From Mesostigma viride (lineage: Eukaryota > Streptophyta > Mesostigmatophyceae > Mesostigmatales > Mesostigmataceae): a stretch of DNA of 64,000 bases. Both the position numbers and the translations under genes were made by a program. The notes below the pieces were generated by a model, which searched no databases, was not told the origin of the DNA, and saw nothing but the letters and a program-made list of their open reading frames with translations. How positions within the stretch are numbered: the first letter of the stretch is position 1; every line of letters starts with the position of its first letter. Of this stretch, positions 3,901-63,100 are shown piece after piece. The stretch is taken from the NCBI GenBank assembly GCA_009746045.1, contig RPFO01000104.1, positions 5,910,895-5,974,894 of the forward strand, in the 5' to 3' direction.

Positions 3901-6900
3901 GAACATATGGTGTCAGCTTTCACGCTTGTGCTGGTTGTCTTAGGAATGAGCGTCCCCAGGGGTTGACCTTGACCATACTGAGACAGGCCAGTGTGTCCAG
4001 ACAGTCCCCTAGCCAGACACAACCCCAGCAGGGGGTAAGATACTGAGTATTGACGTCACCACCGTTGCACACTATCATCGCGGCAGGTAAAGTCACGGCA
4101 GGCCATAGATCCACACGGGCCACACACAGAAGGCGTAGAGCCATTAATTAGCACGTAGACTGTGTCATAAGCCACACATAGATGCCTGTACTACTCAGCG
4201 ACCGCCACATTCACATCCACACAGCCACCATGCGGAAGAAGCAGCAGCAGCAGCCATACATCCACACAAGCCACCGATATGCGCGCACTCACATCAGCAC
4301 GGCCACGAGCCGGCATGTTCATCAGCCGTGTATTCCCAAATGCCAGCCACACTCACGTCCCACCAAACATCTGGTTATGGCTACATCAGTGCCCAGTTAC
4401 TACATCCAGTCAGTTCTGGCTACATCAATAACCAGAAGCCTGCACTCACATCAGCACGGCCACAAGCCCGGACGTGGGCGAGCGCCCGCCCTTATACTTG
4501 CGGTGCGAGAGCCCCATGCAGGTGCGGAACTCGGTGAGCACGGCCTGCGAGATGTGGACGAGCCCGTGGTGGAGGGAAAGCACGGTGTGCCGCTGGTGCA
4601 GGTGCCGCCAGAGGGCGGTCATCGCGGGCACCGTGTCGTGGCCGCAGCGCGACGAGATGAGCGTCACGTCCTTCTCCAGCGGCAGGTGGCTGTTGTGGGG
4701 CCGCACCGCGTACTTCCGCGTCCACAGATGGTTGAGGAGGCGGAACGTGGTCTTGCTGCCCACCTGCAGGGGGGGAGAGGAGGGTTAAGGGGGTTTAGGG
4801 GGGGGGGGGGGGGCGGGCTGCATAAGCAGAGTTATGGGTCTGGAGTGTTGGTCTGGTGTGTTGGTATGGAGTGTTGGTCTGGTGTGTTGGCTTGGTGTGT
4901 TGTTCTGGTGTGCTGGTTTAGTGACTTGGTCTAATATGTAGCGTATGTTACTCGCGCACGCTGCTCGTGTTACTCGCGCACGCTGCTCGTGTTACTCGCG
5001 CACGCTGCTCGTGTTACTCGCGCACGCTGCTCGTGTTACTCGCAAACGCTACTCGTGTTACTCACTCACAGTAGGGACGGTGCCATGTCCACAATGTCAT
5101 CCATCGGATGATCTGGATTACCCCAGCGCCGCGAGGAAAACGCGTTATGTTAAAGACATCCCGTTTTTATCGAGGGCATGCCCGCCTGGGTCCCTGCGAT
5201 GGCACAACATGACCAGAAACCAATCCCCTTGCACATTGCACCATTGACACTGCCATGGATCCTGCGGTTGACATCTCGCTTAGAAGCTTGCGGTCATGAA
5301 ACAAAGGCAGATGGGGAGCGCGTTGTCAAGAAGCCGGCAGACGCATCATCGCACCCACCAAGCACATACCGCTTCCGCTGGTGATGGCGATTGTTGGTTG
5401 ACTTGCTTAACTACAATACTCACCATATCGCGTACCATGCTTAGACCTTACGGCATGCCAACAGACGCCGAATCAAAGGTGCGCGCATATGGAGAACGGG
5501 CCAAGGTACGCTACTACGTGAGAACCCACCTTGTCCTTGAACCCTGACGTCGGTGCCTGGTTGATGCGGAAAACCACGTCGTGGCTGTCGATGTCAGCCC
5601 CATAGTTTGTGTGCAGCAGGCTACCGCTGTTGCCGACAACTGCGCAGCGGTTCCACTTGTGCCGGTCGAACACCGCCGCCCCGCTCTTGGGCATGGTGAA
5701 GCGCAGCTGCTTGTACGCCTCGGGCAGGTGATCCTGCGGCAGCTGGCGATGGAGGAAGCTGTTCATGGGGCTGCAGGCAGACAGATGAAAGAGGAAGCAT
5801 GTTTGAGAATGCACATGCGAGGAAGCACGTTTTAAAACGCACAATGGAGGAAGAACATTTCAGAGGCACTAATGAAAAATACATATAAGGGAACCCGCTC
5901 ATGCTGGCACAGGTGGTGCAGAATGCACGTGCAGATGGAGGAAGAAAAGGAAAAAAGGGAGAGTCCCAATGGGGAAACCAGGTTGAGAGTAAAGTTCATC
6001 CCACCTGTTAAGAAAGCATAGCGAGGAGGCACATTAAAAAAGAATACGGAGGAACCGCAATCTCAGAACATGTTGAGAAAGCACATTGGAGGAGGCCCAC
6101 ATGAGCCATTTTGAAGGCGGACCAATGCAAGAAACTAACTGGGGACGCAAATGGAGGAATCGGGGGAAATGGGTGTGGGTGGGTGGGGGTGGGTGGGTGG
6201 GTGGGTGGGTGGGTGGGTGGGTGGGTGGGTGGGTGGGTGGGTGGGTGGGTGGTGGGTGGGTGGGTGGGTGGTGGGTGGGTGGGTGGGTGGGTGGGTGGGT
6301 GGGTGGGTGGTGCGGCGGGCGGGCGGGCGGGCGGGCGGGCGGCGGGCGGGGTGGGCGGGTGGGCGGTGGGCGGGTGGCGGGTGGGCGGGTGGGCGGGTGG
6401 GCGGGTGGGCGGGTGGGCAGGTGGGCAGGTGGGCGGGTGGGCGGGTGGGCAGGTGGGCGGGCGGGTGGGTGGGTGGGTGGGGTGGGTGGGTGGGTGGTGT
6501 GGTGTGTGTGTGTCGGGGGGGGGGGGGGGGATGCGGGGTTGAGATACATGCTCTCTATGTTATATTAAGGTAGGTTTCAGGGGCACTCATCCACAAGCAC
6601 CCGTCCACGAGCACCCATCCATGGCTGCCTAGCAATGCTTGAACTAAGGGAGACCACCCCTTTGGCCTTCCGAGGGGTTGCCTTGGAGATGCCTGCGTAG
6701 CACACCACACCTGCTGCGATGGCGTAGCATGGGGGGCAATATATGTCTTGGTGGGCAACCGATATCTTGGTGGGCATGAACTTCCCTGGCTCCCATGATG
6801 ACTGATGACGGCCACGGCCACCGGATGCACCCACCCACAGAACAAGCTAACCAGCGAAAAGCGCGCCAGCAGGACAACACAAGCAGCACGGGGGCCAGCG

Positions 6901-8006
6901 ACAAACGCTCACGCATGGGAACCAGGGCACAATGACCAGGGACAGCCAGAACGACGACCAGGCAGGATGCCAGCTTGGCAGAACACAGCCACCAGGGGGG
7001 CCAGCATGACACAACACAACCACCGCGGGTGCCACCATGGCACAACACAACCACCACGAGGGTCAGCATTGCCCACTCACTCGAAGCTGTAGTTTGCGAG
7101 GAAGATGGGGAACAGCTTCATTGGGGGGTACTGCTTCTTGCTCAGCTTGGAACACACACGCATCGCCTGGCACTCGGCGTCGCAGTGCTTGTGCGCAAAG
7201 AACCCAACGACACGCGTGCCGTTGCCAGGTGGCGGCTTGGCACGGCCCAGCCAGAAATCCACGTCCTCAGGGTCCGGCTCCTCGTGTTCCTCCATCTCCA
7301 CCTCCTCCCCGTCCAGTGGGGTCTGGCCGGCCAGACGGTCGTCCACGGACTTAAACTCGTGGGGGAGATCTACGAGCACGTCAGGGTGGTCATGGTCGAT
7401 ATCTGCAGGGTGGACCGGGTCGGTGACATTGCTAGCCTTTCCGGATGATGCCTGGCTGTTTAGTAACGAGACGCCGGTCAAGGTCCCGTTGAGGGACGCG
7501 GCTCCCGGCGGGGAGGAACCGTCCGCGTCCTCCCCTTCTTCGTCTCCGGAACCGCCCTGCATGATGCGTCTCGCCCGCTCCATCTCCTTGGCGTAGTCGA
7601 AGTCGATCTCCTCCTCTTTATCATCAATTTCGAAGACGACGTCTTGGACCCCTCTGTCCCGCCCCCATCCGCGCTTGGAGCGCGTGTCGAATGCCAGGTG
7701 CATGCCATCCGAGTCGTGGTGTCGCTGACCCATGAGCAAGTCGTGCCACCGGGTCGCCATTGGCAGGCGGTACTGCGTTACCGAGTAATGGTGGCTGCCA
7801 CCATCCATAGCTATCTGGAATCGGAAAACCATCGTCACGACACATGCAACCGCTAGAGCAAGCAATGACTGCCATCGAAGACATCGCCGACTGAAATCCG
7901 CAGCAGCGCGTTTGAGGATGGCTCGCCGCATCCGGCTGGCGATGGCAGAGGCCGTTTCGGCCGCTTCCACCCGCTCATGGTGCTCATGGTGTACCGTCGT
8001 CCTCAT
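972..8006 (-). CDS. GT29 sialyltransferase-like glycosyltransferase, type II membrane protein (4 exons)
   Basis: Exons on the minus strand: 8006-7081, 5770-5530, 4763-4450 and 1536-972. Donors and acceptors are GT-AG and phases match, giving 681 aa. Residues about 46-62 ([15 protein letters not shown]...) form one N-terminal membrane anchor after a basic cytosolic tail, as in Golgi glycosyltransferases. A long acidic stem follows. Sialylmotif L spans residues 350-395 (CAVVGNSG, then [10 protein letters not shown]) across the exon 2/3 joint. Motif S ([11 protein letters not shown]...YGF507) spans the exon 3/4 joint. RYQYY is the motif III equivalent, and H533-x4-E538 is motif VS. All four motifs of family GT29 are present, so an active Golgi sugar transferase is likely; the acceptor and the true donor sugar are not predictable. 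After motif VS there is a ~130-residue tail with several N-x-T/S sequons. The start is the ATG at 8006; the frame is open for 36 nt upstream without an ATG. Confidence 0.93.
1694..1850 (+). repeat. dispersed repeat shared with 59033-59195
   Basis: This ~155-nt stretch (GTTGTGGGTGAACCCTGGG... to ...CTACTGCAT) matches 59033-59195 with scattered substitutions. It lies in the last intron of the GT29 gene. It is probably a remnant of an interspersed element; no coding capacity is seen. Confidence 0.6.
1934..3425. repeat. 1.5-kb polypurine GGAA/GGGA microsatellite array
   Basis: (GGAA)n runs into an uninterrupted mix of GGGA and GGA units with no pyrimidines for about 1.5 kb. It sits in intron 3 of the GT29 gene, so the transcript strand is a polypyrimidine tract. 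Long open frames in all orientations (SLPPS, REGG repeats) are artefacts of the repeat. Confidence 0.97.
3440..3890. repeat. (GTGA)n-(GTGG)n-(GTGA)n compound microsatellite
   Basis: GTGA repeats flank a central block of GTGG repeats (about 3541-3700) in a symmetrical arrangement directly after the polypurine array, in the same GT29 intron. Confidence 0.97.
4281..4463 (-). repeat. duplicate of GT29 exon 3 end and 5' splice site
   Basis: A 22-nt match links 4285-4306 with 4442-4463. The latter covers the last 14 nt of GT29 exon 3 plus its donor GTGAGTGC. The copy lies 157 bp inside the downstream intron and keeps GTGAGT. Weaker relatives continue towards 4200. Confidence 0.8.
4945..5068. repeat. 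22-bp tandem repeat, about 5 copies
   Basis: The unit begins GTGTTACTCGCGCACG and repeats at 4945, 4967, 4989, 5011 and 5033 before decaying at 5055. It lies in intron 2 of the GT29 gene. Confidence 0.93.
6174..6500. repeat. (GGGT)n/(GGGC)n microsatellite
   Basis: GGGT units grade into GGGC and GGGCGGGT units with a poly-G run at 6516-6530. It lies in intron 1 of the GT29 gene. Gly/Trp- or Pro/Thr-rich frames here are repeat artefacts. Confidence 0.95.
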
Positions 8007-8998
8007 TGGTGTTATTTCTGAACACAGAATTACATCTACCAATGCTCAATGTAGCTGGCTATGGCTCCCGGCAGCACTTATCATCATATGCTGAATCATT
8101 GAAGAATGCAACACGACAGCTGTAAAGGACAATATGGGCCTACCGCATATGGCATTGCATCAAAGAGCCGTGCATTTCGTGCCCACCAAGTTTCTTGGGT
8201 CAGTAGCGGGAATCTTTAACAACGCGGGTATTGCTTCAAAGGGCGGCCATAGGTGGCCATCTGCACCAACGCTCGCAGAACGAGCGGGGCGTGAGGATGT
8301 ATCTTACTTTTCATGGCAGCGACTGCCTGCCGGGGTCTATCCGCAGGTGCACAAAAGCTATCAGCAGGTTCAAGTCTATTTGCTCCCTGCATGACTTTAC
8401 AGTACTGTATTGGTGCCCTGGAATCTCACTACAGTACAGTAAGTGACTGACGCCGGTCATCATCAAGCCCAGACAGGAGATCCGGGGTTGATTTAAATCC
8501 GGTACTTATGGTCAGTCGGTCAGTCAGTTGGATCCCACGCCGGTCATACTGTACGGTAGGATCTTATTGAAACTGTACTTTCTACACTTGCGATTTCGGT
8601 CAGGTACGGGAAGCCCGAGGCACGGCCGGGTGCGCGCGGTGGCATCAGCTTGCCAAATGCCAACATGCCAAATACCACTGCGGCCATGGCATGTTTTTGT
8701 GGTCTCCTCCAGAAACCCAGGCGAATGCTACGTCGTGATCCCTGAAAAAGTGGACAGTTAAATACTTGCAAATACGTCTGCTTCATAAGCAATAGCTACA
8801 AGCGCCAGCCATTTTACTGCGGATTGGACGCCCGAGAGTTTTGAATTGGCTTAGGCTATTGGCGGACTGACTAATGGCGGCAGAAGCAGTTTAACTGAAG
8901 CTTTTTCTCAAAGGGTGGCATTTTATTCCCTTTCTTACAAAGGTCAATCTCAATTTCACAAGGGATACCATGCCTTCAAGGGGCTAATTTTGAGTGAA
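8007..8998. promoter_or_regulatory. divergent intergenic region (bidirectional promoter candidate)
   Basis: About 1 kb separates the GT29 start codon (minus) from the start codon of the Ser/Lys-rich protein (plus), so both promoters should lie here. No TATA box or other defined element could be assigned. Short CGGTCA/CAGTCGG repeats occur at 8450-8530. Confidence 0.35.
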
Positions 8999-10160: not shown

Positions 10161-10164
10161 AGCC

Positions 10165-22843: not shown

Positions 22844-25800
22844 CTACTCCCTCAGCTTGCTGAACAGGATCGCGGAATTGTGGCCCCCAAAACCAAAGGA
22901 GTTGGACAGCGCGACCTTGACCTCCTGGGGCTCTGCCGTCTTGCCCACAATCTTCCGCAGGTCCTGTGGACGGTTTTGTCCGGGGGCAAAGAGAAAGGGA
23001 CGGGCCCAACAACAAAGACAATGGGCCAGGGCAAGCCACGCGCACATGCGTCAGCCACGAGCAATCGCAGCCGCATAACAGTGAAGGACAGTAGCAGGAC
23101 TGATAACCAGGCCTTCGCCCCCAGACATGCACGGAGACAGCATGGGATGCAAGGGACGTGATTTCCGGATGCTGCACATTCAGTCTACAAACAGATCCTC
23201 CAAACAGAAACACAAAACATAGTCCCTGCCACAACAGCCACCACCCAGTCACCGCCTGCACGGAACATCGGCAGCAAGTAAAGACAATCATGCCGGAGCG
23301 AATGAAAAGGTGGCACCATATTTCACATTAGCACATCCGCATGTAGCTCGAGTCGCTCACAAACCAGATGAACTGGAGCACAGCTGTCCCCCAACACATC
23401 GCAATGAGACGGACCATCACGAATATCAATAAGACGGACCATCATGAATATCAATGAGACGGACCATCACGAATATCAATGAGACGGACCATCACGAATA
23501 TGAATGAGATGGACCATCATGAATATCAATGAGACGGACCATCACGAATATCAATGAGACGGACCATCACGAATATCAATGAGACGGACCATCACGAATA
23601 TCAATGAGACCAACTGTCATGAATACGCCCCCGCAAAAGCGCCTCGGCGTAGAATCCCCGCCGCAAAGCAACCACTCACCACTGCATCCTCTGGGTTGTC
23701 CAGGTTGATGGATGGATGCAGCATGCCCGTCTTCAGTGCCTGCTCCTCAGCAACAACCACACCACGACCATGTTATGAAGAAGGGGGGGGGGGGGGGGGG
23801 GGGCGTCATGAAAGGCTCAACCATTGTGCAAACTGTCTCATGTTGGGGGGCAGACTAGTGGCGGTGTGGTAACAAACCAGCTTTGCGGTGCACGCAAAAA
23901 AAAAGCCATTTACACCGTACGAGTTAGCAATGTGCGGATTGGCTTATGGTTGGGTTTGGAACCATCACACAACAGAACAGTCATTCGACACTATCGAAAA
24001 AGAAATGTGTGCCGGGTATTTCTGTGCACTCTGTCAGGTGCCATCACAACAACTCAAAACAGGACTGAACCACGATGCGCATGCATGACGTGGCAGGGGG
24101 AAAAGGTAAGTCACTACGAGAAAGTAGCCACCACTTTGTCGAAATTGTGACCACTACGCACCATCACGGATACCACGGCTTCGATGGCTCCCGCCGCGCC
24201 CAGCAGGTGCCCCGTCATGGACTTGGTGGCGTTGAGCTTGAGCACCGGGTTGTTGCCAAACACCTGCATGATCGCGCCGTACTCAGCCATGTCGCCCGCG
24301 GGCGTGGAGGTGGCGTGCGCGTTCACGTAGGTCACATCTTCGCGCTTGACGCCCGCGTTGCGAAGTGCCGTCTCCAGGCACAGCTTCACTCCCGCCCCTG
24401 GGGGTGATGAAAGCCATTTCACAGTAAATATTCAATGACACAACCAGCATTATATTACCATTATTAGGCAATTATTAAAATTCAGTTGACGTAAAAATGT
24501 TTCAGATTATTTGGTATTCTTGAGCAATCATACAGGTGGTTGGGGGATAGGCGGGCAAGGGGTGCAGCTAATAGGCAGTTGGGATGCGAACGGAAAAAAA
24601 TAGGGATCCGTTGGGTATCCTATGGATGTGGATCAATGTATTTATCATCCTTGTGCGCAGACAAAGCACCACTGTAAATTATGAATGGATGTGAACCCCT
24701 TGAATGGGATGTCACGAGAGCCTTGTCATCCTGTTGCCATCCTTTGCATTTGCAAATGCAGGCCGGGGTGGCATCCTCTCCAGCACACACGCTTAACCAG
24801 CAACTTGGCACACCAGTGCTGCTAACAGGACGAATTCGTCACTTGGTTGACGAATTTCGAAATAAATAGTAAAAAAGTCAACCATTTTGGGCAATTCGTC
24901 AACCACATTTGTCAACCAACTCGACAATTCGTCAACCAATTGACGAATATGTTCCGCAATTCGTCAACCGATTTGACGAAATGTTTAGGGTATTCGTCAA
25001 CCACGGAAGTCAGGTTTTCCCTTAGAGATGCTTAGAGACCTGAGGTCCAGCGGCGCGGCGTCAGGCCGTCAGCCCGTACCAGCTGAATCCTAGGTACGCT
25101 GCAGTTAGTGTTGTTTTGGAAAGACAGTACGGTTCAGTCGGGTACCAAAACTGAAGTACTGATGAGGTACTGAACTCAAATCGCCTGGACAAAAACCTTG
25201 TGAGACGAGGAAGGCAGGACCAGCCGACCAGGGCATGAAAAACTACTACTATTAATAAACCTCCGACCTATGGCCGTCTGGCAACAACGTAGTATGCGAT
25301 AAAATATTGCATGCGAAATTGTTTCGATAATGGCGGCGGGCGATGTTCAGGTAGTGTTGCATGAGCTAGATAAATTCAAAGAAAAACGGTTCGGCAGGTT
25401 TCAAGACTAGCACCTTAGATGCTCTGTTTAACAAGCAAGCTGGAGAAACTGTTCCGGTAGCGACGTAGAATATCGTTGACCTAGGCCGCAGTTTAGATGA
25501 AAAGGAGGGCAGGCAGGGCCGCGACAAACGCAAGAGAGTACAGCTTGAGGAAGAGGATGGGTCTAATGCGCAGGAAGACGACGATGGTGGCCAGCCAACA
25601 TCATCTGACAGCGCCTCAAATTCTGGCAAGGAGGAATCTGGCGAGGAGGGGGCCAAGACAGCAAGGAGCAAGGCCGATGATGGCGGCCGCTCTGAGCCAA
25701 GGAAGAAGAAGGGCAAGAAAGAGAAAGCCAGCTCCCAAGACGAAAAGGCAGAGACAGGAGGACAACAAGCAAGGAGCGGCCCGACCGTGAGCAGTGGTGG

Positions 25801-28800
25801 GGAAACGGAAAGTACGAACGAGCCCAACCGACCACGGATCTGGAGATTGTGATGGTTGATTCATGGCCTCGTGCTATGCACACTTGACTCTGGCCTAGCT
25901 GTGAATGATACTAGTTATTATTCTATCATTTATGCAGTTGTCAACAACCACCAAGTGATATTGTGTTATATCCACACGCATGCATTACACGCGTGTGTGA
26001 GCGACCTAAGTTAATTATATATCAAGCTGCCCCCCCCCACACACACACAGGTTTGACGAAGCGCCAAGGCAAATAGTCCACCAGTTTGACGAATTGCCGA
26101 GGCAAATAGTCAACCATTTGACAAAGTGCCGTGGCAAATAGTCAACCGTTTGACGAATGACAAAAACCCTTAGCAGAAGCACTGTGGCACACCAGTGTAG
26201 GGAGCAGCGAAACCGCTGGAGATTCAAAAAGACACGCAAGCCATGCACAAGGTGACATGAACTCCACAAAACTCTATACAGAGGACAAGGACAAAGACGA
26301 GGGGGAGTGGGAGGCATCCAGCCATACCGTTTGGCAGCGGCTCTGTCATGTGGTATCCATCGCATGCGTAGCCACCTCCCAGGAACTCGCAGTAGATATG
26401 CGCACCCCGCGCCTGGGGGTGGCCAGGGGGTGGCATTCCCACGTGATCCGATCAAGCCATCACAATCAAGCCATCACAATCAAGCCATCACAATCAAGCC
26501 ATCCCACGTGATCCGATCAAGCATGAGTCATCACAACATCCGAGCATCACATGGGACTGCGCACACTCCCATCCAAGTCCAGGGACATGGGATGAGGCAG
26601 CCCATTTGTAAGACTGCTGGATGGGCTATCACTTGAGGGTGTGGCATAGCAGGCAACCACTCATCACTCAACCACTAAAGAGGGTTGGAGTGCCGAGGGT
26701 ACAAAAGAAATTCTATACCCGGGGCATGTGCAACAGAGATTCCCTGACGTCGCTGTCTGCACCGGAAACTTAATCGTTCCCATGCACACATCCGCATGCT
26801 CGCGACAATGTCAACCTTCAAGTCGCCGATGCAAAGATTGCCGGTGTAAAGCAGCAAAGTGCCAGCCACACAAGTCGCAGCGAGACAAGGCTTTAGCTGG
26901 ACCATAGTCTGCTAACTAGGGAAAACATATTGTGTGAGGAAAACAAGGGCAGATAGAACAAAGGAACAATGGGAAAGTGCCCTTCCCCTACAAACCTTTG
27001 CGTGCTCGTAATCCTCCAGCACCAGCACACCAGCACCCTCGCCCATGACAAAGCCATCACGATCCTGGGAAGTGGGGAAGTGGCAAGGCACATGACGATA
27101 ATGGATACATGCGGCAAGGACACGGAGGCACCCGAATAACTCGGTTGGTTACTGAACAACATCGATGAGTTACTGAACCTGTTAGTTGACGATTTAAAGA
27201 ACCATTTGAATGATCCAGGAGCTACTCTGGCGTTTGCAATAGGGGCCATGGAAATGCTGGAGAAAGCGGTGCTGACAGCCGTTACCTCTTCCCGAAAGGC
27301 TGGGGCCCCCGTGAATATGGGGCATACATCTACTCCACAAAACATGTGATCCAATGAGCATTGCCCTGGTAAATTCAGCCCACTTTTCAAGCAAGGGATG
27401 TTTAGCACACTATTACAGCTGTGCCCACCAAAAGCTTGCAGGTGTTGGCCGTTCACAGGTAAGATGAATACGAGTGTGCACGGGGTTCGCAGGTGGCCGC
27501 ATAAAAACAGTGCCTTCCACCAGGATTACGATGATTACAGTACAGACCTCGCTTTCGTCGCTTAGCCGACCTAACAGAGTCACCATGCAGAGCGCGCTTA
27601 AGCCTTAAACTGACCAGCTGTATCAACCCCCCTTCTGTAGACCCACGCTAGCAACTGCCACCGGTACCATCCATCTCATGACCGTACCAATCTTAATAGC
27701 TTCCCCAAGCTATCGTTGAGATTCCATCTAACTTCCATGAACCACTGCTGTCAACCAACTCTGTCAGGTTCCTGTTAGCGTGTCACTCTTCCAACGAGAT
27801 TTTCCCTTTCTCCCCCCTGAGCGCACACAACCCACTCAACACCGTGCATCTGCAGACGTCCATGACAGCTTACCTTGTCCCACGGCCGAGACGCCCGATG
27901 CGGCTCGTCGTTGCGCTTGGACAACGCTTTGCAGGCGCAGAACCCCCCGATACCTGCGCACCCAGATGGCCATGGCGCAAGGTGAGGAGCCAGCCATAGG
28001 TAGGCATGTCAAGGGGCGGCCCAAGGTGAGGAGCGAGGGAAGGAGCGAGGCGAGGAGCGAGGCGAGGAGCGAGGCGAGGAGCGAGGCGAGGAGCGAGGCG
28101 AGGAGCGAGGCGAGGAGCGAGGCGAGGAGCGAGGCGAGGAGCGAGGCGAGGAGCGAGGCGAGGAGCGAGGCGAGGAGCGAGGCGAGGAGCGAGGCGAGGA
28201 GCGAGGCGAGGAGCGAGGCGAGGAGCGAGGCGAGGAGCGAGGCGAGGAGCGAGGCGAGGAGCGAGGCGAGGAGCGAGGCGAGGAGCGAGGCGAGGAGCGA
28301 GGCGAGGAGCGAGGCGAGGAGCGAGGCGAGGAGCGAGGCGAGGGGCGAGGCGAGGGGCGAGGCGAGGAGCGAGGCGAGGAGCGAGGCGAGGAGCGAGGCG
28401 AGGAGCGAGGCGAGGAGCGAGGCGAGGAGCGAGGCGAGGAGCGAGGCGAGGAGCGAGGCGAGGAGCGAGGCGAGGAGCGAGGCGAGGAGCGAGGCGAGGA
28501 GCGAGGCGAGGAGCGAGGCGAGGAGCGAGGCGAGGAGCGAGGCGAGGAGCGAGGCGAGGAGCGAGGCGAGGAGCGAGGCGAGGAGCGAGGCGAGGAGCGA
28601 GGCGAGGAGCGAGGCGAGGAGCGAGGCGAGGAGCGAGGCGAGGAGCGAGGCGAGGAGCGAGGCGAGGAGCGAGGCGAGGAGCGAGGCGAGGAGCGAGGCG
28701 AGGAGCGAGGCGAGGAGCGAGGCGAGGAGCGAGGCGAGGAGCGAGGCGAGGAGCGAGGCGAGGAGCGAGGCGAGGAGCGAGGCGAGGAGCGAGGCGAGGA

Positions 28801-31800
28801 GCGAGGCGAGGAGCGAGGCGAGGAGCCAGGCGAGGAGCGAGGCGAGGAGCGAGGCGAGGAGCGAGGCGAGGAGCGAGGCGAGGAGCGAGGCGAGGAGCGA
28901 GGCGAGGAGCGAGGCGAGGAGCGAGGCGAGGAGCGAGGCGAGGAGCGAGGCGAGGAGCGAGGCGAGGAGCGAGGCGAGGAGCGAGGCGAGGAGCGAGGCG
29001 AGGAGCGAGGCGAGGAGCGAGGCGAGGAGCGAGGCGAGGAGCGAGGCGAGGAGCGAGGCGAGGAGCGAGGCGAGGAGCGAGGCGAGGAGCGAGGCGAGGA
29101 GCGAGGCGAGGAGCGAGGCGAGGAGCGAGGCGAGGAGCGAGGCGAGGAGCGAGGCGAGGAGCGAGGCGAGGAGCGAGGCGAGGAGCGAGGCGAGGAGCGA
29201 GGCGAGGAGCGAGGCGAGGAGCGAGGCGAGGAGCGAGGCGAGGAGCGAGGCGAGGAGCGAGGCGAGGAGCGAGGCGAGGAGCGAGGCGAGGAGCGAGGCG
29301 AGGAGCGAGGCGAGGAGCGAGGCGAGGAGCGAGGCGAGGAGCGAGGCGAGGAGCGAGGCGAGGAGCGAGGCGAGGAGCGAGGCGAGGAGCGAGGCGAGGA
29401 GCGAGGCGAGGAGCGAGGCGAGGAGCGAGGCGAGGAGCGAGGCGAGGAGCGAGGCGAGGAGCGAGGCGAGGAGCGAGGCGAGGAGCGAGGCGAGGAGCGA
29501 GGCGAGGAGCGAGGCGAGGAGCGAGGCGAGGAGCGAGGCGAGGAGCGAGGCGAGGAGCGAGGCGAGGAGCGAGGCGAGGAGCGAGGCGAGGAGCGAGGCG
29601 AGGAGCGAGGCGAGGAGCGAGGCGAGGAGCGAGGCGAGGAGCGAGGCGAGGAGCGAGGCGAGGAGCGAGGCGAGGAGCGAGGCGAGGAGCGAGGCGAGGA
29701 GCGAGGCGAGGAGCGAGGCGAGGAGCGAGGCGAGGAGCGAGGCGAGGAGCGAGGCGAGGAGCGAGGCGAGGAGCGAGGCGAGGGGCGAGGCGAGGGGCAA
29801 GGCGTGGAGCGAGGCGAGGAGCGAGGCGAGGAGCAAGGGGAGGAGCAAGGCGAGGAGCAAGGCAAGGAGGAAGGCGAGGGGCAAGGCAGGAGCAAGGCAA
29901 GGAGCAAGGCAAGGAGCAAGGCAAGGAGCAAGGCAAGGAGCAAGGCAAGGAGCAAGGCAAGGAGCAAGGCAAGGAGCAGGGCAAGGAGCAAGGCAAGGAG
30001 CAAGGCAAGGAGCAAGGCGCGGAGCAAGGCAAGGAGCAAGGCTAGGGGCAAGGCAGGAGCAAGGCAAGGAGCAAGGCAAGGAGCAAGCCTAGGTAAGGCT
30101 AATGTAACAGAGTGCTTGCGCAAGTACATTTTGTTTACCCTACGTAACAAAACAAGCTGCCCAAGGCGAGGCGAGACGGAAAGCGGGTCAAGGAGCAAGG
30201 CAAGGAGGAAGCCTAGGCGAGGCGAGGGGCGAGCCGAGGCAGGTGACAGAATCATAACCTTTTCACAACACCTTTTGCATTAGGAACCCAAGTACATCAT
30301 GGTAAGGACAGGCAACGTGAACCGAACCAAGGCAAAGACAGCTGAGGAGGACATGATGCGTGACGTCACCAGCACAAAGGCACCGTGGCCCAATGCCTAC
30401 CTTCGGGCAGGATCGCTGCGTCCGACCCCCCCGCCAACATGATGTCGGCCTCCCCCCTGCGTATGTGCTGCGCCGCGTTGAGGATGCAGTAGTTGCCCGT
30501 CGCGCACGCGGTCGCGATGCTGTAGTTGGGGCCCATGAAACCCTGCTCGTGCGCCCACACCCGGACCCCAGCCAGCCACAAGCACGCCCGGGAAAATCAC
30601 GGAGCAAGGGAAAGAGAAGAAGAGGAGGAAGAGGGACAGAAGGGGAGGTTCCCGCGCCGTGCATGACAGTAGCTTGTCACCAAACTGCGGCGTGACAGAC
30701 ACACATGGTGGGAATGCGTGCGCGTGCCCAGCGGCATTAACGTGTGCTTGTTTCACCAGCGCGCAAGCAGCAGAAAATAAATCATGCCCAAACTAGATAC
30801 ATACATCACCAGCAATTGCAGCTGTCATCTCATCAACCAGGCACCACACCACAGGACGCAGCAAGATACTCTCCACCAATTACGCCAGGACTTGAAACAT
30901 GCTAAAAATGGTGATCTGGGCCTTTGCAGATCCTACAAGTGCAATGCATCTGCTATCTGAATGTGTCACATACCTTGTGGGGGGGGGCACCTAGTGGGAA
31001 CCAGCCAAGCTCTTGCATGGCCTCATGAGTAAACGGACAGGACTGCGGATAAGCGTTGGCCCCATGACCCGTAGCTGGCATGACATGGTACGCGAGGCAT
31101 GCTGCCATGTTGTGGGGCCTGGACATTCCAGGCTGCAACGATTCACGAGCTACCGAAGTGCGAGGAACAGTAATCCCAGGGTCCCTTAGCGGAGCTTCGC
31201 TATCATTCTTAGAATGACCTACCTGACAGCACAGCTATACCTGAAGAAAGCAGAGGGCCCGACTGGCAAATCCAACAAAGAGACAAGCCGGGCTAAACGA
31301 AACTTCCTAGTCCAGCGGAATGGGCACTTTGTGTCGCACTCACATATTCCATGGCGAGAATGGCAGAGCCCATGTTGGTGACGGCGAACGGGATGCAAAA
31401 CGGGTTCATCTTTTTGTGGCCTTCCGTTATCAACGCATTCACCGCGTCCGAGAAAATCTGTGCGTTCCCATGACCATAGGCACCATTCACATTTCCATAG
31501 ATAGCAAGGAGACAACCAGCGCAGGCAAGAAATTCCATATATGTTTTCTTTCATTTCGGGGGATGAGGGGGTGGGCAAAAAGAAAAGAGTTAGGTCAAGG
31601 TGGTTGCAATACGGGCAGCGGCGTAAATATTTGTGCGCATGACATGGACAATCAAGAGGACAACCGTCAACCCCACCCCGTCCACTACTACACGCACCCA
31701 CACACCTACCCATCGCTACCAATAACACACCTGCATGAACCATAGATAACTCTTGTACTACAGATACGATTACCTGCATCAGCGCGTGGACGACCCGATG

Positions 31801-34800
31801 AGCACGCCCCCATCGCCCCGCCGCTGACTACTACACCCAACCCATGACCACCAAGTCCATAGCTCCCTAGTACGGCTTCTCAAGGCAATCTGAGTGGTTG
31901 GGTTCCGATAGTGTAGTCTTTATACTACTCTTATGCTTCTATGATTACCTGCATCCCCCCCATGGAGGAGCCGATGAGCACGCCCACGCGGGCCTTGTTG
32001 AGCGCGTCCAGCTCCACCTTCTCAAACATCTTGGCGTCGCGCATGGCCTTCTTGCCGGCGACCAGCAGGTACTTCATGAACTTGTCCAGCCGGCGGTCTA
32101 GCTTCTTGCTCACCAGGCCGTCCGTGTTCAGGTTCTTGATCTCACCGCCGAATCTCTGTAAAGGATCGGTCCAAAGGGGGGTCAAAGGTCGGTGCGCGGT
32201 GTTGGCTAAGTGCTTGGTTAGTTGGCGGCTTGGTTGAGGGTGTGTGGGGATGGGTAGCTGTCGGGCACACCTGACAAACAAAACCCATGCACAGGAAGGC
32301 ACGCGAAAACTGCGCGACTGGGTATGATGGGCACACTGGCGAGGATTGTCTATTGGTGCGCGGAGGCATACAGATGCTCCCAAACAGCCGACCTTGGAGC
32401 AACCATCTCCACATGTGGCAAGCCGGGGAAGTGATGGCCCCAACAAAAGCATGCCGGGGTGCTTGCCTGCCACATGCGAAGAAAATGGTCTACCTGCTGG
32501 GAACTTACACAGCACTAAGCAACCCGAGGCTCCAGCACAGATGAAAATTAATTCAAAGCACGTGGCTAAGCACCCCGAGGCTCCAGCACAAAGAGGTGGG
32601 GGACACCTACCTTTTTTGGAATTTTTATGCGATGGGATATGATAAGGCACAGCAAGAGCCAGTTTAGGCAAACCCGAACTCCAAAAGTGTCTTTCAGCGC
32701 AAGCTTGATTCGCTCATGTTGGCCGCCATTTAACACTAGCATCACAGCCAGAACCCAAAATTGTGTAGAGCGCCACTGCAGTCCGTGGTGCGAGTCTACC
32801 TGCATCCCCCACCCAGACCCACCCACCCTTCCTCCTTCACCCCTCTTCGCTCTTGGCTATCAGACCAGGCTGCAGCATGCCAGCAAGTGGGCATCATGGC
32901 ATCAACGCCACGGGAGGCTGACCCCACAGCAGTACTATGGCTTCGCAAGGCGGCCCCGTTTTTCTAGTGGGCTCACCCCCATCGACCATGGGTAAGCTTA
33001 TTTGACTTAATACCCTGTTAGGGTCAATCGTGGAATATGGCCGAGTGCGCGCGCTCACCGTGGGGTAGTCGGTCGTGTCAAACGACTCGATCAGCGTCAC
33101 CCCGCTCTTGCCCGCCAACAGGTTGTTGTAAAAGGCCTCCACCTCGTCACCCAGGCAGGAGACGACACCCAGGCCCGTGACCACCACCCGCCGCGGCTTG
33201 CTGTCCTTCCCAGCTGCCGCCTCGGTGACGGTGAGCCTCCCTGTGGACATGACAGGAACGCCAAATGCGGATGAATACATCAACATGGGACCAAGCAAAC
33301 ATGGCACGACGGGAAAAGCAAAATTTGATGAAGGGCGTGGAGGGGGACATTGGATTAGTGCCATAAAGGGGGGAAGGGATTCTCAATAATTACCATTTTA
33401 TTGATTACTGTTCATGATCGGTGACAGCATCATCATCACTTCGAAACAAAGGAGATACTGTGCCATGGGGTGCAGCAGAATTAGGAAAAGGCATACAAGC
33501 AGTAGTCTGAGAACGAGGCACCCCTTAACCTTTGAGGGGCCATTCTCAGGGAGCATTGACTGGGGAAAGGGCAAAAAAAGCCACTCGAACACATCAAGCC
33601 TTTGTCTCTTAGAAGCTGCCCCAAGACGTCAACTGGTGGCGAAACAAGCAAAGAAAGAAGAAAAGTCCAACAAAATTGAAAAAAAGCTTTTATAACCAGG
33701 TAACCGAACGCTTCCCAAATGTCTATCAGCATGCTAGGTTCGTAGGAAAGGAAAGGAAAGCCATGTCACCCCATTCGCAAGCCTGATAACATCCATTGGA
33801 ATACCCAGGCCCAGGCAAGGGAAGAATACGTGTCTAGGCCTGCGTGCCTGCCAGCAAATCCCTTGTCCACGTGCGATTTATGAACTGCTGAGTAAGAGCT
33901 CTAAATACTGGACAAATGCTGATCTAGGTTCAATCGTCAATCAAATGCCCACCTGTCCAATCTACAGCAATGATTTTAACTACAAAAGCAAGGTAGCTCA
34001 CCGGCATACCGCAACACAGAAATTATATGTATAGAAAGCCGCCTAGACTCAAGACCAAGATTTTATACACACTAGAACCGAGCAGTGTCTGTCCACACCA
34101 CCGCCACTTATCAGTAGAAAAACTGCTGACCAGCTATAATTCTAAAACAAATGCAATCTGGAGACCAGAAGAGCATGAGATGCTCCATAGCATAAGCCTG
34201 GGCCACACGCAGCGCACGCTAGCAAACTAGTACTACAGGCCCTCATGGCAAGAGCTTACTATTTGATGTAAAATTGCTTAGTCACTGCCAAGAAAGCTTT
34301 AGCTTGCCAGAAACAGATTCATAGCATGAGATTGGGCCAGTGGACGGGACAGCATGTTAACACTAAACATGCTAACATCCATGTCAAATTACCGAGAAGG
34401 CACATCAATCAGGACGCACGGGGCTAGCAATCCTGGTAAGAAGTGCCTAATTGCTGTGAAGTGTGACGGCGACATACGCACAGCGCCGGCTAGCACAGAA
34501 GATAGCGCCGCACAAAGAAATCGAGACTATGACAAACTCTGTGTCCTTGCTCCCTCCTCTGGAAATGTGGGTAATGATTTCAAGGCATTGATAGGAGAAA
34601 GGGCTAGGTCAAGGAAATTAACAGGGGGCATACACTGGTTGCATGTATTCGAGGAGCGAGCACCCGCCAACAAAGACTTACGTCGAGCACCAGATGAACC
34701 ATCGGTGGTATTGCCGCGGATTACAACACGGTCAGAAGAAAATGAGCTGCGTCGCCATGAGAAACCTAGGCCGGAATGAGACGCTAGCTGGCAGATGTGA

Positions 34801-41900: not shown

Positions 41901-44900
41901 GGCTCTGTGGCATCGCTGCACGCGGAGGTGACAGAGTTATGGCGTGAGTTAAGGCTGTCACCAGAGGCGCGCGCGGCGGTGGTCGCGGCGGTGGGTGCGG
42001 TGCGCTCCAACGTGCTCGACTTCTGGCCGTACGCCGACATGGAGGTGTTTGGCTCCTTCTCGACCGGCCTGTGCCTGCGCCACAGCGACGTGGACGTGGT
42101 GGTGATCGGTGCGCCGCTGCCGCCGCCGTCACCGGCGGTCACCTCGGTGGCCACGGGCATGGCGGCACTGATCCGCCTGCTCTCACAGCACCTGTCGCTG
42201 TCCAAGTGCGTGGCCTCTTTGACCACGATTGAGACGGCGGCGATGCCTGTGATTAAAGTCAAGGTGGCGGTGGGGCCGGCGGGTGTCGCCCCTCCCTCTG
42301 CCTCTTCCTCCACGTCTGCTTCATCAGCAGCAGCGCCAGCAGCGCCAGCACCCGCGGCAGGAGCTCCGCCCGGCCAGCCGCAATCATCGCAAGGCGCCAC
42401 CAGCGCAGCCGTCGGCTCTACCACCCCTGCAACAGGCTCGAATGCTGCCGCCACCCCCGCGGGTAGCTCTGGTGGCGCCGCCCCTCCCCCACCTCCCCCC
42501 TTCCCCCCCGGGCTCATCTCAGTGGACATCACCATCGCGCAGCAGCACGTCGGGCGGCAAGCCGAGGCGGTCGCGCAGGCGGCGCAGGCAGGCATCGTGC
42601 TCCCGCTGGGGGGGGGGTGGGGCCCGCTCTGGGGTCCCACCGCCAAGTCGGTGCACAACGGCATGGTCGCCAGGGAGCTCGTGCGGGAGAAGCTGCAGCG
42701 GTATCCGGCGCTGGAGCCGCTGGTAAGGGCCATTTTTCAAATCTTGATGTCAAAATGGTTTCCTTTTCACTCACTAGGTAGGTGTCACCCAGCGCTGGAG
42801 CGAGTAGTGAGTCAGTTCTCACAGCTAGTCACATCTTGAGTTAAAAATCGTTTGATCTCGTAGCTTTTCCTCCGGGCTTAACATCCAGAGAGGCGCTACC
42901 CGGCGCTGTAGCAGCTGGTCAAGAGCCACATCCACTGCTCATAAGCCGCAGTTGGTCCTCATGAAGAGTTTCGCTTCATTCTCAAAACTGGTTCTTTTCA
43001 GAACTGTCTCTCCTTGCTAAGTAGGTAGCAGGCTGCCGGCGCTGGAGCCGTTCGTGTGGTGATCCTAACATCCGTCTCATGTCAGATCATCCCCTTGGCA
43101 GCTGGAACTCATTTCCTTTTATGATTTTGTTCCTGCATGGTCACTGTGCAGACTGTGGAGTTGACGGCACCCCGCAGGTCCACTCACCACACACACATGC
43201 AAGCACACACGGAGCACTAATGGTTTATATTGTCATAGGCTCATTGGTCATTCGTTCTCTTTCGTGCGTCCGGCATATTGATCATCCTTGAGGCGCTCCT
43301 CCACAAGCAGAAGCTCATCACACGTTTTCTCCTATCTGATTCTTATTCCATGATTCGTCAGGTGCTCATCCTCAAAGCGTACCTCTACAAGCTGAAGCTG
43401 AACGACGTGTACGCGGGCGGCCTGGGCTCCTACTCGCTCACCCTCCTGGTCGTCTTCTACCTGGAGGTGAGTCTCGCGGGGGGGTCCTTGCAAAGCGGAA
43501 GGGGATGGGCGGGCAAGGTTATCGGGGCATGGGGTGGATGCCGACAAGCTTTCGGGGGTGGTTGATGATGGTTGCAAGTAGGGGTGCACAATGCACGTGT
43601 CCCCTTGATAGCGAGAGTCCCTGTGACGTCCCTCTGACTGGCTCTATGGTTTGGGCCGGCGAACGGTGGTATTCGATGACCCTTGCCCTACATAGGTTGG
43701 GCGATGCACCCAGGCAGTGGTGTCCGACCCAGGAATGGCCTGGGGCACCCCACCCCGTTCCATTCAAAGCCTAATCTTTATCCTTTCTGCTTGCATAACG
43801 CCCCATGTGCTGATGAATGGCATGCAACTGCTTTTCATTGGCTTGTGCGTTTCCATTCCCCTTCTACACCCCTCGGACCCACCCACCCACCCACCCACCC
43901 ACCCACCCACCCACCCACCCACTGCTTGCCCCTCGTTGTCCCCACCACCACCACCACCACCACCACACCCTCCCTCAACCCCACAGCGGCTGACCCTGGG
44001 CCTGGGCTTCACCCCCGTGGTCCCGCCCACGTGGCCGCAAGGCGTGGCGGCGCCCCCTGCCCACGAGTTCAGCTGGGGCGAGGCCGGCCCGCCCGACATG
44101 GTGGACCTGGGCTCGCTGCTGCGTGGGGTGCTGCACCTGATTGGGTCGGGGCTGGACTTCTCCAAAGTGCGCCTGCAGCTCAAGGTGAGTGGCAAAGGGT
44201 GGTGGGAGGTGAAGGGTTTGTGGGTGGTTAATGGTGGTGGGAAGTAAAGAGTTCGTGGGGGGCAAAGGGTGGTGGAAAGTAATGGGTCATAGGGTGGCAA
44301 AGGGTGGTGGGAAGTAAAGGGCTAGTGGGTGGTTAATGGTGGTGCAACTCAGCAGCTTCCACCTAGGCCTGAAGTGCTTGGCCAGTGACATGGGTCATAC
44401 GCACCAGCTACCTACGCTTCCAGTCTGTGACGCGGGGGAGATGGGGGCCATTACTGAGATGATGTGCCACATGCTTGGGGGACAGCAACCCGTGGCACTT
44501 TACGAACGCCCTCTCATGTATCAAGCCCAATGTTGGCGTCGTAGCCGTGGGTCAACGATAAGGAGGCGACGCAGTAGCCATTTTGCAGTCTTGAATACTA
44601 AGAAGGCTGACTTTGTGGCCATTCCGTGGTTATGCTTCTCCACATGGCGGCATGTGGGCATCCCCCCCCCCCCCCCCCCCCCCCTCGAAACCCTAACCCC
44701 CTCCTCTTCCTGTTTGTGCCGGTCACGTGCCCTCCCCCAGGCCAAATCCATGCCCGGCGGCCTGTTTGTGCACGAGCCGTGGGTGCACGCGGCGCCGCTA
44801 ACGATAGAGGACCCGCTGCGACCTGGCGCAAATGTCAGCTTGGGCTCGTTCAACTTCTGGCGCGTGCAGGTGCGTCCGGTGGCAGGACATGCACTAGGGG

Positions 44901-53452: not shown

Positions 53453-53453
53453 T

Positions 53454-54039: not shown

Positions 54040-54053
54040 CTCAGGGCCATTAA

Positions 54054-58854: not shown

Positions 58855-59026
58855 ATCAAGGAGACAACCAGCGCAGGCCAGAAATCGGGAGAATCCGGAC
58901 CATGGTAGCTTTCAAGCCTGCCGTTATCTTGTTCGCGTTTTCGAGTTGTTCAGGATGATGAATATGAATGTAGATGGAAATGTGTAGCCTTGTGCATTGA
59001 AATTGTTGCTGGCTTACGTGTAGAGC
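58855..59026 (-). repeat. Penelope-associated repeat fragment
   Basis: The reverse complement of the last ~170 nt of the 13380-13745 repeat (GGAGACAACCAGCGCAGGC, then GAATCCGGACCATGGTAGC, then CGTTATCTTGTTCGCG). Confidence 0.75.
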
Positions 59027-59032
59027 AAGAGG

Positions 59033-59460
59033 GGGTTGTGGGTTAACCCTGGGAATGCCCCTAAAAACCCTCAGGCTCCGGGAGAGGCATTTATACTCTG
59101 CCTTACCGGCGCTTCTAAATGTGTGTGTTGCCTATCTGTGGGCGCTGGACCAAGGGGCAGCCTTACTGCATCCGCTACGCCGTCAGCCATGCTTTGCCCA
59201 TGCAGAGAGCCACTCTCTGCTGAGACGCCATCTGCCCAAGCCATTGCCTAGCCATGATCATCTTCCACCCCCCATGTCCGCAACTTTGCACAGCTGCTGG
59301 AATACATGGTGGTGCAGGTGCACCTCAATTGTGCACCCCGAGTAGGTCACGGCAGTTTACACCAACCACCTGCAGGTTGTCGCCTAGAATATATGCCCCT
59401 TCTCAGGGGTATGTGTTGCATATCCTCCCCACGGAGGTATGTTCTGATTACATGTAGAGC
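59033..59460 (+). repeat. dispersed repeat and ORF1-element 3' tail
   Basis: 59033-59195 matches 1694-1850. 59195-59455 is a diverged ORF1-element 3' UTR ending in CTCCCCACGGAGG. Confidence 0.65.
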
Positions 59461-59712
59461 GACTGAATGACCTAGACGGTGGGGCCGGAAACAGCTTGCT
59501 TGATCAGGGCGTGTGTTTCGGGCCTAACTGGCCGGGGGTGTCTAGGAACTATGCCTGAATTATGCAAGATCAATACAATAAGATAAATATTGATCATCAA
59601 TTATATAAAAAGATTCGAACACGCGGATAGAAAAGATAACGGCAGGATCGAGCTACCATTGTCCGGATTCTCCCGACTTCTGGCCTGCGCTTGCTGTCTC
59701 CTTGATATAAAA
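59461..59712. repeat. Penelope-associated repeat fragments in both orientations
   Basis: 59461-59545 is minus-oriented (GACCTAGACGGTGGGGCCGG). 59608-59712 is plus-oriented (CACGCGGATAGAAAAGATAA, TTGTCCGGATTCTCCCG). The copy is rearranged. Confidence 0.7.
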
Positions 59713-60196
59713 GGGCCTCTTGCTGCATATCCCTACGAGGCTCAGGACTCCACACCTTCAGCGATGCGGTAGAACAAATACAGGCCTGCCCGTTTCCGCA
59801 CTGCGACTGTCGCATATTGACCTAGTTACATCACCAGTCCTTTGCCACATCACTGCTTGTCCCTGGCACGAAAAGCTCCCCACCACCCAGTGCAAAGTGC
59901 AATTTCAAATACACTTAATTTCATCCCCATGCACTTCGGTTTACCACTGGTCCCTGCAGCGGTCTCTATCATGCCTCACCGCAGCTCTACTACCTCCCAA
60001 CCAATTGGGCGCTTCACTCCTCCAGCCATGTGGAACATAGCCTAAATCCCTTACCCTCATGTCTCAGTCATCGCCACACTTCTCCAACGCCAAAGCAGAG
60101 CTCAAATGCGTCATGGATCAACCCTCACATATACTTTTCCAACACGGCCCAACTGCTTCACCCTTGTAGGTAAAGCTTGTAGGTAGAATAGGGGCC
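59713..60196. other. intergenic, 3' flank of starch branching enzyme
   Basis: No feature was recognised. Confidence 0.45.
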
Positions 60197-63100
60197 TCAC
60201 TCCTCCAAGGTGGACAGCGCCTCCATTGCCGCCGCCGTCGCCCCCACCGCGTCCTTGTCCGCCTTGCCCTTGGCGTCCCCGGCCGGGACGTACTGCGGGT
60301 ACTGGTCCGCATTGAAGTACACCTGGCACGTGCGTGATGGCGCTAGCACCGCAAACGAGTGGCAGCGGTTGTTGAAGTTGCTCGCGGGGTCACCTGGCAC
60401 GCCCTCGGGCTGCGTGAAGTGGTCCGTGTCGTGGCCCACGCGGCCCTTCCCCCCAAACTCGTACGCATCGCTGTCGAGCGCCACACGGTACTTGCCCGCG
60501 TCACGGCACCCGACCTTGTACCCCTCGTACGTCTTGGTGGGGTGGAAGTTGAACACGAACACGAGGTCGCCGCGCTCAAACACGATCACCTGGGGGGTGG
60601 GTAGCATGGGGTTGAGGGGGGGGTTGTTTAAAAGGTGGGTGGGACGAAGGGGGGATGGACGAGAAGTGTGAATGTTAGACTGACGAGGGAAAGGGGATAG
60701 ACCAAGGGAGGGGAGGGGAAGAGAGCGATCCAAGCTGGGAAACAGAGGATGGGAGAGAAGAAGACTTTAAAAAGGTAGGCGCAACGTGACATATGCCAGG
60801 GCACAGTTATGTCAAGATGCCACAGAGACAGGTACCAAACGACACGCAGACAGAGACAACCAGCCGAGTGGGCATGCCCAATCAAGGCACCAGCAGCAGC
60901 ACCTATCAAACGGGGGGGGCGCAGGCAGGGGATGCGTGGTTGCCCAGACAGGGCGAAAGGGCAGGGGGCGGCAGGGGCAGGGGGCAAGGGGTAGGGGGCA
61001 GCGCATGTGAACAAACCATGCACACACATTCTGTCCTCCTCGTGAAAACTGGGCACTACGCACGTGTTATTTGCGCCACATATTTCAAGATGAGCTATCA
61101 AAGATGGAAGATAAGAAGAACCCACACAACTTGGCTATAGTATCTCCCCTACCATACCCTCCTCATGGAAGCTGGGCACAACGTCACTAAAATTAGTGCA
61201 CATACTGTATTGAATATTTAACCATACTTTCCCCCAGGTGAAAGCTGGGCACAACTAGCTTTTATTAGTGCCACCTGTTATATCTTGTTACCGGTGATTT
61301 TTTTTAAACGCTGTCATGAGCCAATCAGACCTAGTTTGCCCGCATTACGCCTACGTTTGCCCTCCTTGTATACGCTGGACACCTGGTCCCTATTAATAGC
61401 AAAACAGAAATAACAACGTACTACACCGCAGTGACCCATATATTACCTCCCCGTGAAAACCCGGGCACTACGTACCTGTTATTAACGCCACATGCTACAT
61501 GTCAACCAATCCGTGCTATTATTATGCCCGCCTACCCTATCCTCCTCGTGGAAGCACCAACTGACATCAAGAACCAACAACCTATTAATAACAAAACTTT
61601 TCAACAACAATTATTTTTCCTGATAACGTTTAAGTGAAAATCGTTCTACCTTATCCTCCTTGTGGAAGCTGGACACCCAGCCCCTACTATTTGCAAAACT
61701 TCTACAGTAACTTATTACATCTCAGTGACCCATGTCCTACCTTGTCGTCCTCGTGGAAGCTGGACACCAGCTGGTGCGGGCTGCGCATGAACCCGAACCG
61801 CTCATCCAGAGCGCACATGGCCCGGTCAAACTCCGCCATGAACTTGTACCGGAGGTGGCTCTCGTCCGCCAGGTGCCACTGCCGGCGGCAGTAGTTGTAG
61901 CTCCAGCCATTGCCCTCACGAGGAAAATCCATCCACTCGGGGTGGCCGAACTCGTTCCCCATGAAGTTGAGGTACCCGTCCCCCCCCAACGCAAAGGTGA
62001 TGAAGTGGATCATCTTGTGGAGCGCGATGCCTCGCTCGATGACCGGGCTCGCGGGTGACAGCGCCGACATGCCCGTGTACATCTCCTTGTCCATGAGCCA
62101 GAACGCAACCGTCTTGTCCCCCACGAGCGCCTGGTCGTGCGACTCAGCGTACGCGATGCACTTCTCGCTGTACCGGCGGTTGCAGAGCGCGACCACGATC
62201 TCGTGCATTCCCCACTGCTCATCCACGCGGTGCTTGAGGAGCTGGATCCACTTGTCGGGGATCGCCATCGAGAGCCGGTAGTCAAACCCCAGGCCGCCCT
62301 GCGAGACAGGGACGCCCAGGGTGGGCATGCCCGAGACGTCCTCCGCGATCATGATGGCGTCCGGGTAGAGGGAGTGGATCGTCTCGTTCGCCAGCATCAT
62401 GTACACGCAGGCCTCGACGTCGGTCGAGAAGCCAAAGTATTCGTGGTACTGGCCCGAGAAGGCCATGTTCAGGCCGTGGTGCGTGTACAGCATGGACGTC
62501 ACTCCGTCGAAGCGGAAGCCGTCAAACATGTACTCCTCCATCCAAAAGCGGAGGTTGGAGAGGAGGAACCTCTTCACCTCCCAGTTGCCGTAGTTAAACA
62601 GCCGGCTGTCCCACAGCTTGTGGTACCCGCGGTCCCCCGTGTGGAAGTAGGAGTCCGCCGAGGACTGCCCGAAATCAAACCCGTTGAGGCCGTCGTCGAC
62701 ATTATTGGAGGCGTGGGAATGGATCACGTCCATGAGCATGGTCAGGCCAAGCCCATGCGCGGTGTCGATGAGATATTTCAAGTCCTCGGGGGTGCCGCAG
62801 CGGCTGGAGGGCGCGAAAAAGTTGGTCACGTGGTACCCGAAGGAGGCGTAGTACGAGTGCTCCATGATCGCCATGAGCTGGACGCAGTTGTAGCCCGCAC
62901 GCGCGATGCGGGGCAGCACGTTGTCCGCAAAGTCCCGGTACGTGTTCACTTTGGGCTCGGAGGAGGACATGCCCACGTGGGCCTCGTAGATGCGAGGCGT
63001 CGCGGGACGGGGGGGCCGTGCGTGCTTGAACTTGTACTTCTCGCTCGCGGGGGGGTCCCAGTAGATGCCGTCGTATTTCGCGCCCATCTTGCCCGGCTCG

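Follow-up and report, generated by a model that had tools for sequence, protein, structure and literature searches.

Why should the end of an exon, together with its 5' splice site, recur inside the intron that follows it? The question was raised by a stretch of 64,000 nucleotides from the streptophyte Mesostigma viride (GenBank assembly GCA_009746045.1, contig RPFO01000104.1, positions 5,910,895 to 5,974,894 of the forward strand), here called the window and meaning the whole stretch that was analysed. An earlier note on this DNA had reported such copies in four unrelated genes, GT29, KAS, a DCD-domain polymerase (DCD) and a starch branching enzyme (SBE), and had ascribed them to tandem DNA duplication across the 5' splice site (the donor) followed by decay. 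The copies were found where they had been reported, and the same kind of duplication was seen on other contigs. We consider it probable that they result from a general process of tandem duplication that is tolerated when it straddles a donor, its trace being preserved by the frozen exon.

Gene models and queries

The assembly comprises 440 Mb in 2243 contigs. Window genes were modelled by hand, which gave 20 introns: three in GT29, nine in KAS, seven in the DCD-domain polymerase and one in SBE. All were GT–AG, and every joined gene had an open reading frame. Gene names are those of the earlier note and our own; alignment to a named protein covered SBE alone, where the exon junction aligned without a gap to rice branching enzyme. 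Each donor query consisted of 40 nt of exon and 12 nt of intron and was compared with the first 1 kb of its own intron, with 500 dinucleotide shuffles as the null (mean score 8.9–9.9). A mirror query, made of the acceptor and the exon start, served as the 3' control. A small gene finder was trained on the window genes and then applied to chaperonin loci and to the surroundings of the window. In its own training window, it proposed 60 introns, which included every one of the 20 hand-made acceptors and all but one of the 20 donors. In the chaperonin and ab initio counts, an intron was called copy-bearing at z > 5, and these runs used 60 shuffles.

Donor copies in four introns of the window

The donor queries of introns GT29_3, KAS_B, DCD_4 and SBE scored 26, 29, 23 and 28 in their own introns, respectively, with z scores of 11.5–14.5 (10.7–12.6 with 60 shuffles). 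For each of the four, its own intron ranked first of 20, the other introns scoring 12–15. When both strands of the 64-kb window were scanned, the best match of each query again lay in its own intron, ending 98–206 nt past the donor, and the best score outside that intron was 14–17. The first convincing copy begins at intron nucleotide 59 (SBE), 131 (GT29), 139 (KAS) and 170 (DCD), in agreement with the range of about 60–180 bp given earlier. Copies scoring at least 14 numbered five in SBE, two in DCD, two in GT29 (one of them weak) and one in KAS. With the donor query, nothing comparable was found in the remaining 16 window introns, where the next best was KAS_E (score 15, z 4.0). The earlier count of four genes out of four thus holds as one intron in each gene and amounts to only four of 20 introns. 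The 3' mirror query was positive in one of the 20 (DCD_4, z 7.1). Sources and copies are located as follows, in positions of the window; donors within copies are called ghost donors, and a slash marks the exon end.

61734–61776, minus strand: SBE source, exon end (-36 to -1) plus donor (+1 to +7); intron 61740–60590
61643–61681, minus strand: SBE copy 1, score 28, ghost donor AAG/GTAGAA
61531–61555, minus strand: SBE copy 2, score 19
61350–61383, minus strand: SBE copy 3, score 17
61148–61179, minus strand: SBE copy 4, score 20
61032–61066, minus strand: SBE copy 5, score 18, match ending immediately ahead of the donor
31940–31985, minus strand: KAS source, end of exon B plus donor; intron 31948–31458
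31765–31809, minus strand: KAS copy, score 29, ghost donor CAG/GTAATC
42688–42732, plus strand: DCD-polymerase source, end of exon 4 plus donor; intron 42723–43361
42893–42928, plus strand: DCD copy, score 23
43020–43055, plus strand: DCD copy, score 17
43279–43325, plus strand: copy of the start of DCD exon 5 (source 43362–43408), 5' of the real acceptor, the 3' mirror image of a donor copy
4442–4475, minus strand: GT29 source, end of exon 3 plus donor; intron 4449–1537
4285–4318, minus strand: GT29 copy, score 26, ghost donor GAT/GTGAGT, the same as the real donor
4184–4209, minus strand: GT29 weak second copy, score 15

Of these four introns, that of SBE holds the most copies. Its alignment spans whole units, with -27 to 95 matching 64 to 209 and -1 to 86 matching 293 to 380 at 74% identity. 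Donors of the copies lie at intron positions 91, 205, 386 and 588, the fifth copy's match ending ahead of the donor. The intron is a decayed tandem array. Its three best-aligned copies have GGAGG in common where the exon reads GGACG, an indication that, following a first duplication, the array expanded within the intron.

Some introns of these genes contain other repeats or open frames. Besides its donor copies, GT29 intron 3 holds a 2-kb GGAG-type array (1933–3892). KAS intron D (27954–30400) consists mostly of a 12-nt minisatellite (~172 copies, 28024–30084), through which open frames run on both strands. Within KAS intron G, the minus strand reads open over 25366–25860; this segment may belong to a small nested gene or represent a remnant.

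Chaperonin genes on other contigs

Ten chaperonin (PF00118) loci on other contigs yielded 76 predicted introns, of which two shorter than 100 nt were dropped and 74 scored. Donor copies were detected in 16 of them and copies of the acceptor and exon start in six. When window and chaperonin introns were pooled, the counts were 20/94 for donors and 7/94 for acceptors (Fisher p = 0.011). Donor copies outnumbered acceptor copies in ten of the 11 genes that differed, out of 14 (hand count; two-sided sign test, ~0.012).

The models behind these counts were checked in two ways. A Pfam scan of four of the ten predicted proteins (L033 and three others) returned PF00118 for all. Aligned to solved chaperonins, the predicted proteins place 13 of the 16 donor matches at gap-free junctions, the junction positions having been placed by hand from predicted exon lengths and the aligned genes (zeta, gamma, epsilon, beta and cpn60-like) having been chosen first because of their donor matches. 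The other three matches belong to L026, L027 and L029, which this check excludes; L032 was aligned and has no donor match. Known model errors concern exon 1 and a skipped exon of L030, exons 1–2 of L025, exon 3 of L032 and exon 3 of L033.

Young arrays and an age series

Much better preserved units were found among the chaperonin genes. CCT-gamma (L030) intron 5 starts with nine 48-nt units, in each of which 17 nt of intron head precede 31 nt of exon end. All nine units share one exon-derived sequence, with two mismatches to the exon in 31 bases; for the intron-head part there are two variants, one in two units and the other in seven. The intron therefore presents ten donors spaced 48 nt apart. 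The array is in frame and stop-free, and each unit included through a ghost donor would lengthen the protein by 16 amino acids. Intron 3 of the cpn60-like gene has three 76-nt units. Head-to-tail arrays of a single unit, as in a minisatellite, are thus seen in CCT-gamma and the cpn60-like gene, alongside the decayed array of SBE and the single copy of KAS.

In L033, which we take to be CCT-theta, a 78-nt array repeats, with no mismatch, the last 31 nt of an exon with an open frame plus the next 9 nt, which are intron and include the donor; this duplication was missed by the gene finder, and the exon end was read from the open frame rather than from an alignment. A near-identical locus on contig C1641 carries the same donor duplication, its two units differing at one position. 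Contigs C887 and C1641 were taken as haplotypes, although they may instead represent a recent paralog. One of the two contigs lacks a 43-nt unit of an intron-internal array that the other has, and the 786 aligned bases differ by 14 substitutions; gain or loss of units is thus probably still going on. The difference concerns the intron-internal array; for the single donor-straddling duplication compared, each contig has two units. These cases form an age series, with CCT-gamma, the cpn60-like gene and L033 young and SBE and the other window introns at the old end.

The two contigs also differ by a ~3.1-kb stretch (L035, ~546–3669) found on C1641 but missing from the corresponding position on C887. 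It is possibly a recent transposon and contains the same 112-nt repeat row twice (1067–1178 and 3462–3573).

Locus specificity and local duplication elsewhere

The copies keep the order and orientation of exon end, splice site and intron sequence and lie near the original, as tandem duplicates do. Beyond the donor, 36 of 40 copies match the intron head and one matches the next exon, with three ties (nine of the 40 are from the CCT-gamma array). We therefore rejected copying back from spliced mRNA and conclude that DNA was duplicated.

In a comparison of anchors, a score of at least 20 was taken as positive, and one donor and two acceptors of low complexity were left out. Positive matches in the own intron were obtained for 19/95 donors and 6/94 acceptors. 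Compared with other introns of the same gene, donors matched in one of 646 cases, and exon interiors at least 70 nt from the donor matched their own intron in 0 of 150. Within the 64-kb scan and the introns of each gene, donor copies were restricted to their own locus. Introners and other intron-making transposons were rejected on the same grounds, namely the first rank of the own intron among 20 and the single match among 646 in the samples compared. An excess of matches in own introns over shuffled or swapped introns, which the earlier note had made the test of its claim, was obtained in the samples compared. Direct repeats covered 17% of exon positions -50 to -1 and 2% of positions -100 to -51, and 6% of positions +1 to +50 on the 3' side.

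Against a process specific to donors stands the frequency of local duplication elsewhere. Intron-internal anchors were positive in 67/446 cases (mean per intron 7.3%; 22 of 86 introns with any match), and internal repeats were not clearly commoner in introns with donor copies (8/20) than in the others (14/66). Intergenic anchors were positive in 67/471 cases on one strand and 68/470 on the other; 40 of the 67 matches represent one satellite. The assumption that intergenic DNA is free of such repeats was rejected on these counts. The seven acceptor cases likewise led us to reject a donor-only process, and the reading given in the earlier note is too strong in this respect, as local duplications also occur in intron-internal and intergenic DNA. 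In the window, 14 of 15 Tandem Repeats Finder arrays scoring at least 80 lay in the 20 kb of introns, one was coding and none fell in the 32 kb of other non-coding DNA. Despite this pattern, a limitation of tandem arrays to introns was rejected, as the larger region has intergenic duplications.

To the right of the window, a repeat region ~4 kb long lies outside predicted genes (212724–216604 of the joined 260-kb region). Its typical offset is 152 nt, and it is probably a satellite.

Proposed mechanism

In this genome, non-coding DNA would often undergo local tandem duplication, in units of ~30–200 nt. Where such a unit straddles a 5' splice site, the last 12–62 nt of the exon, the donor and the intron head would be duplicated together. 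If the original first donor stays in use, the protein would be unchanged and the extra unit would turn into intron, where it may expand into an array. The copies would then drift neutrally, and the exon-derived piece would stay recognisable longest because purifying selection holds the exon. Acceptors would be duplicated likewise, but more rarely; the first acceptor met would usually be used, which would break the frame and could explain the difference between 5' and 3' ends. Since the exon half hardly drifts, donor copies should remain readable longer, and their excess over non-coding anchors need not mean a higher rate. Acceptors fall short despite the same readability advantage, which suggests that duplications there are removed.

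The earlier note held that such duplications are tolerated because either donor can be used. This is doubtful: offsets are divisible by three in 13 of 40 copies, nine of which come from the one 48-nt CCT-gamma array, which leaves 4/31 elsewhere. As most offsets are not multiples of three, splicing from a ghost donor would in most cases cause a frameshift, and preference for the upstream donor would be the simpler candidate reason for tolerance.

Weighing of the evidence

Besides these offsets, several observations weigh against the proposal. The first is the rate in neighbouring genes. Of 257 ab initio introns, 137 were left once window introns, introns exceeding 4 kb and those with weak exons or N were set aside; a minimum length of 100 nt then reduced the scored set to 125 introns from 196 kb flanking the window, and donor and acceptor copies were found in five each. 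Under stricter exon scores, the counts were 4/72 for donors and 2/72 for acceptors, and then 1/23 for both. False introns depress the rate of this set to some extent, yet the low rate stands. The earlier suggestion of a general route of intron lengthening has to be set against these numbers, 20 of 94 introns in the hand-made and chaperonin models and only five of 125 in these neighbours. Among the chaperonin matches, CCT-zeta alone contributes six of 16. In SBE, identity between copies is about the same as identity between exon and copies, so one-sided decay is not visible there. Ghost donors remain strong, with a mean position weight matrix score of 5.01 compared with 5.87 for real donors and 0.33 for random intronic GT, although this is partly a selection effect, the copies having been picked by a similarity that included the donor. 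Use of the upstream donor, too, is inferred.

The length of the copied exon piece is a further difficulty. It measured 12–62 nt in the 20 donor cases and 30–38 nt in 11 of them, while units were 90–195 nt long in 15 of 20; extents carry an error of several bases, and the L031 piece (57 nt, 42/57 identity) is probably too long. The mean exon share of the unit was 0.39, compared with 0.62 expected if breakpoints were uniform from a 20-nt detection floor (0.6 of the unit for short units) to the unit length, and 50,000 draws never gave so low a value. A plain straddling model leaves the short exon piece unaccounted for; selection against longer ghost exons or anchoring at the splice site could explain it.

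Anchoring at the splice site, through nascent RNA, an R-loop or a spliceosome footprint, would yield an exon piece of near-constant length. The clustering of exon pieces, their maximum of 62 nt and the excess of donors over acceptors in the anchor comparison speak for it. The seven acceptor copies include similar exon pieces (20–48 nt), however, so it could not be confined to donors; non-coding DNA away from splice sites duplicates too, selection could set the same length limit, and the extents carry the errors given above. We regard such anchoring as unlikely. Hardly more credible, to our judgement, is the wider view that intron growth in this lineage proceeds from the 5' end through donor-anchored duplication of a near-constant ~30–38 nt of exon plus the intron head, with about one-fifth of introns keeping an exon-end fossil and the direction of growth readable genome-wide. 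The arrays might alternatively be functional, with decoy donors slowing or regulating splicing or permitting in-frame extensions. The retained strength of ghost donors and the in-frame, stop-free CCT-gamma array are compatible with this, but the manner in which the copies were picked, the scarcity of in-frame offsets outside that array and the loss of GT in two of the 20 best copies make it very improbable.

A relic of intron birth is equally hard to credit. Under the Rogers model, tandem duplication of an AGGT-containing exon piece founds the intron, and the same class of mutation is known from other genomes (PMC4974935 and PMC3443670). The copies in M. viride comprise exon end, donor and intron head, so the donor had to exist beforehand, and an intron bounded by the GT of one exonic AGGT copy and the AG of the following one, as the model expects, was not seen, given that 36 of 40 copies extend into the head of the intron. 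Chance similarity or low-complexity sequence has a negligible probability: introns here are rich in simple arrays, but for the four window introns the shuffles, the other introns and the exon-interior controls refute it. Tandem duplication of a general kind, tolerated across donors, therefore remains our preferred explanation.

Relation to known systems

Tandem duplication is a well-known proposed source of new introns and boundary changes (PMC4974935, PMC3443670, PMC2891723, PMC2812944). In the potato RdRp gene, a new intron arose from a tandem duplication across the boundary of intron 1 and exon 2 (Ma et al. 2016, PMC4974935). As there, a duplication in M. viride spans one exon–intron boundary and existing splicing signals are re-used; unlike there, it is the donor and not the acceptor side that is crossed, and an existing intron is lengthened, repeatedly and in many genes. 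New introns of Daphnia contain direct repeats of 4–17 bases, with 4–12 shared with the exon, ascribed to staggered breaks (Li et al. 2014, PMC4202315). Those introns are likewise thought to lengthen through repeated local events that leave direct repeats, and short repeats in common with the adjacent exon end occur in them, whereas units here are ~30–195 nt and include 12–62 nt of exon with the donor. In duplicated human genes, minisatellites with ~30-bp units at exon–intron boundaries can alter splicing (De Grassi and Ciccarelli 2009, PMC2812944). Arrays of short units at such boundaries are common to both systems; the human ones concern recent paralogs and alternative splicing or novel introns, and ours are mostly decayed arrays in introns of conserved genes. 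In the model of intron gain through tandem genomic duplication (Rogers 1989; Hellsten 2011; summarised in PMC4974935 and PMC3443670), duplicated splice signals also convert sequence into intron, but there an exonic AGGT supplies both new splice sites, whereas here the donor pre-exists and the intron is lengthened.

Widespread duplication across donors as a route of intron lengthening was not reported in the mainly open-access literature that we searched. Zhuo is said to have described, in 2007, human introns from tandem arrays. Tandem duplication is already well known as a proposed route of intron gain; repeated donor-side lengthening of existing introns in many genes differs from it.

Intron lengthening is difficult to follow, as the record of past events is lost from the intron sequence itself. 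In these cases a reference copy survives in the exon, and duplications that cross a donor therefore stay readable, which makes their rates, their sizes and the difference between 5' and 3' ends measurable. The near-identical donors 40–76 nt apart in the L033 intron, CCT-gamma intron 5 and intron 3 of the cpn60-like gene are natural tests of donor choice by the spliceosome.

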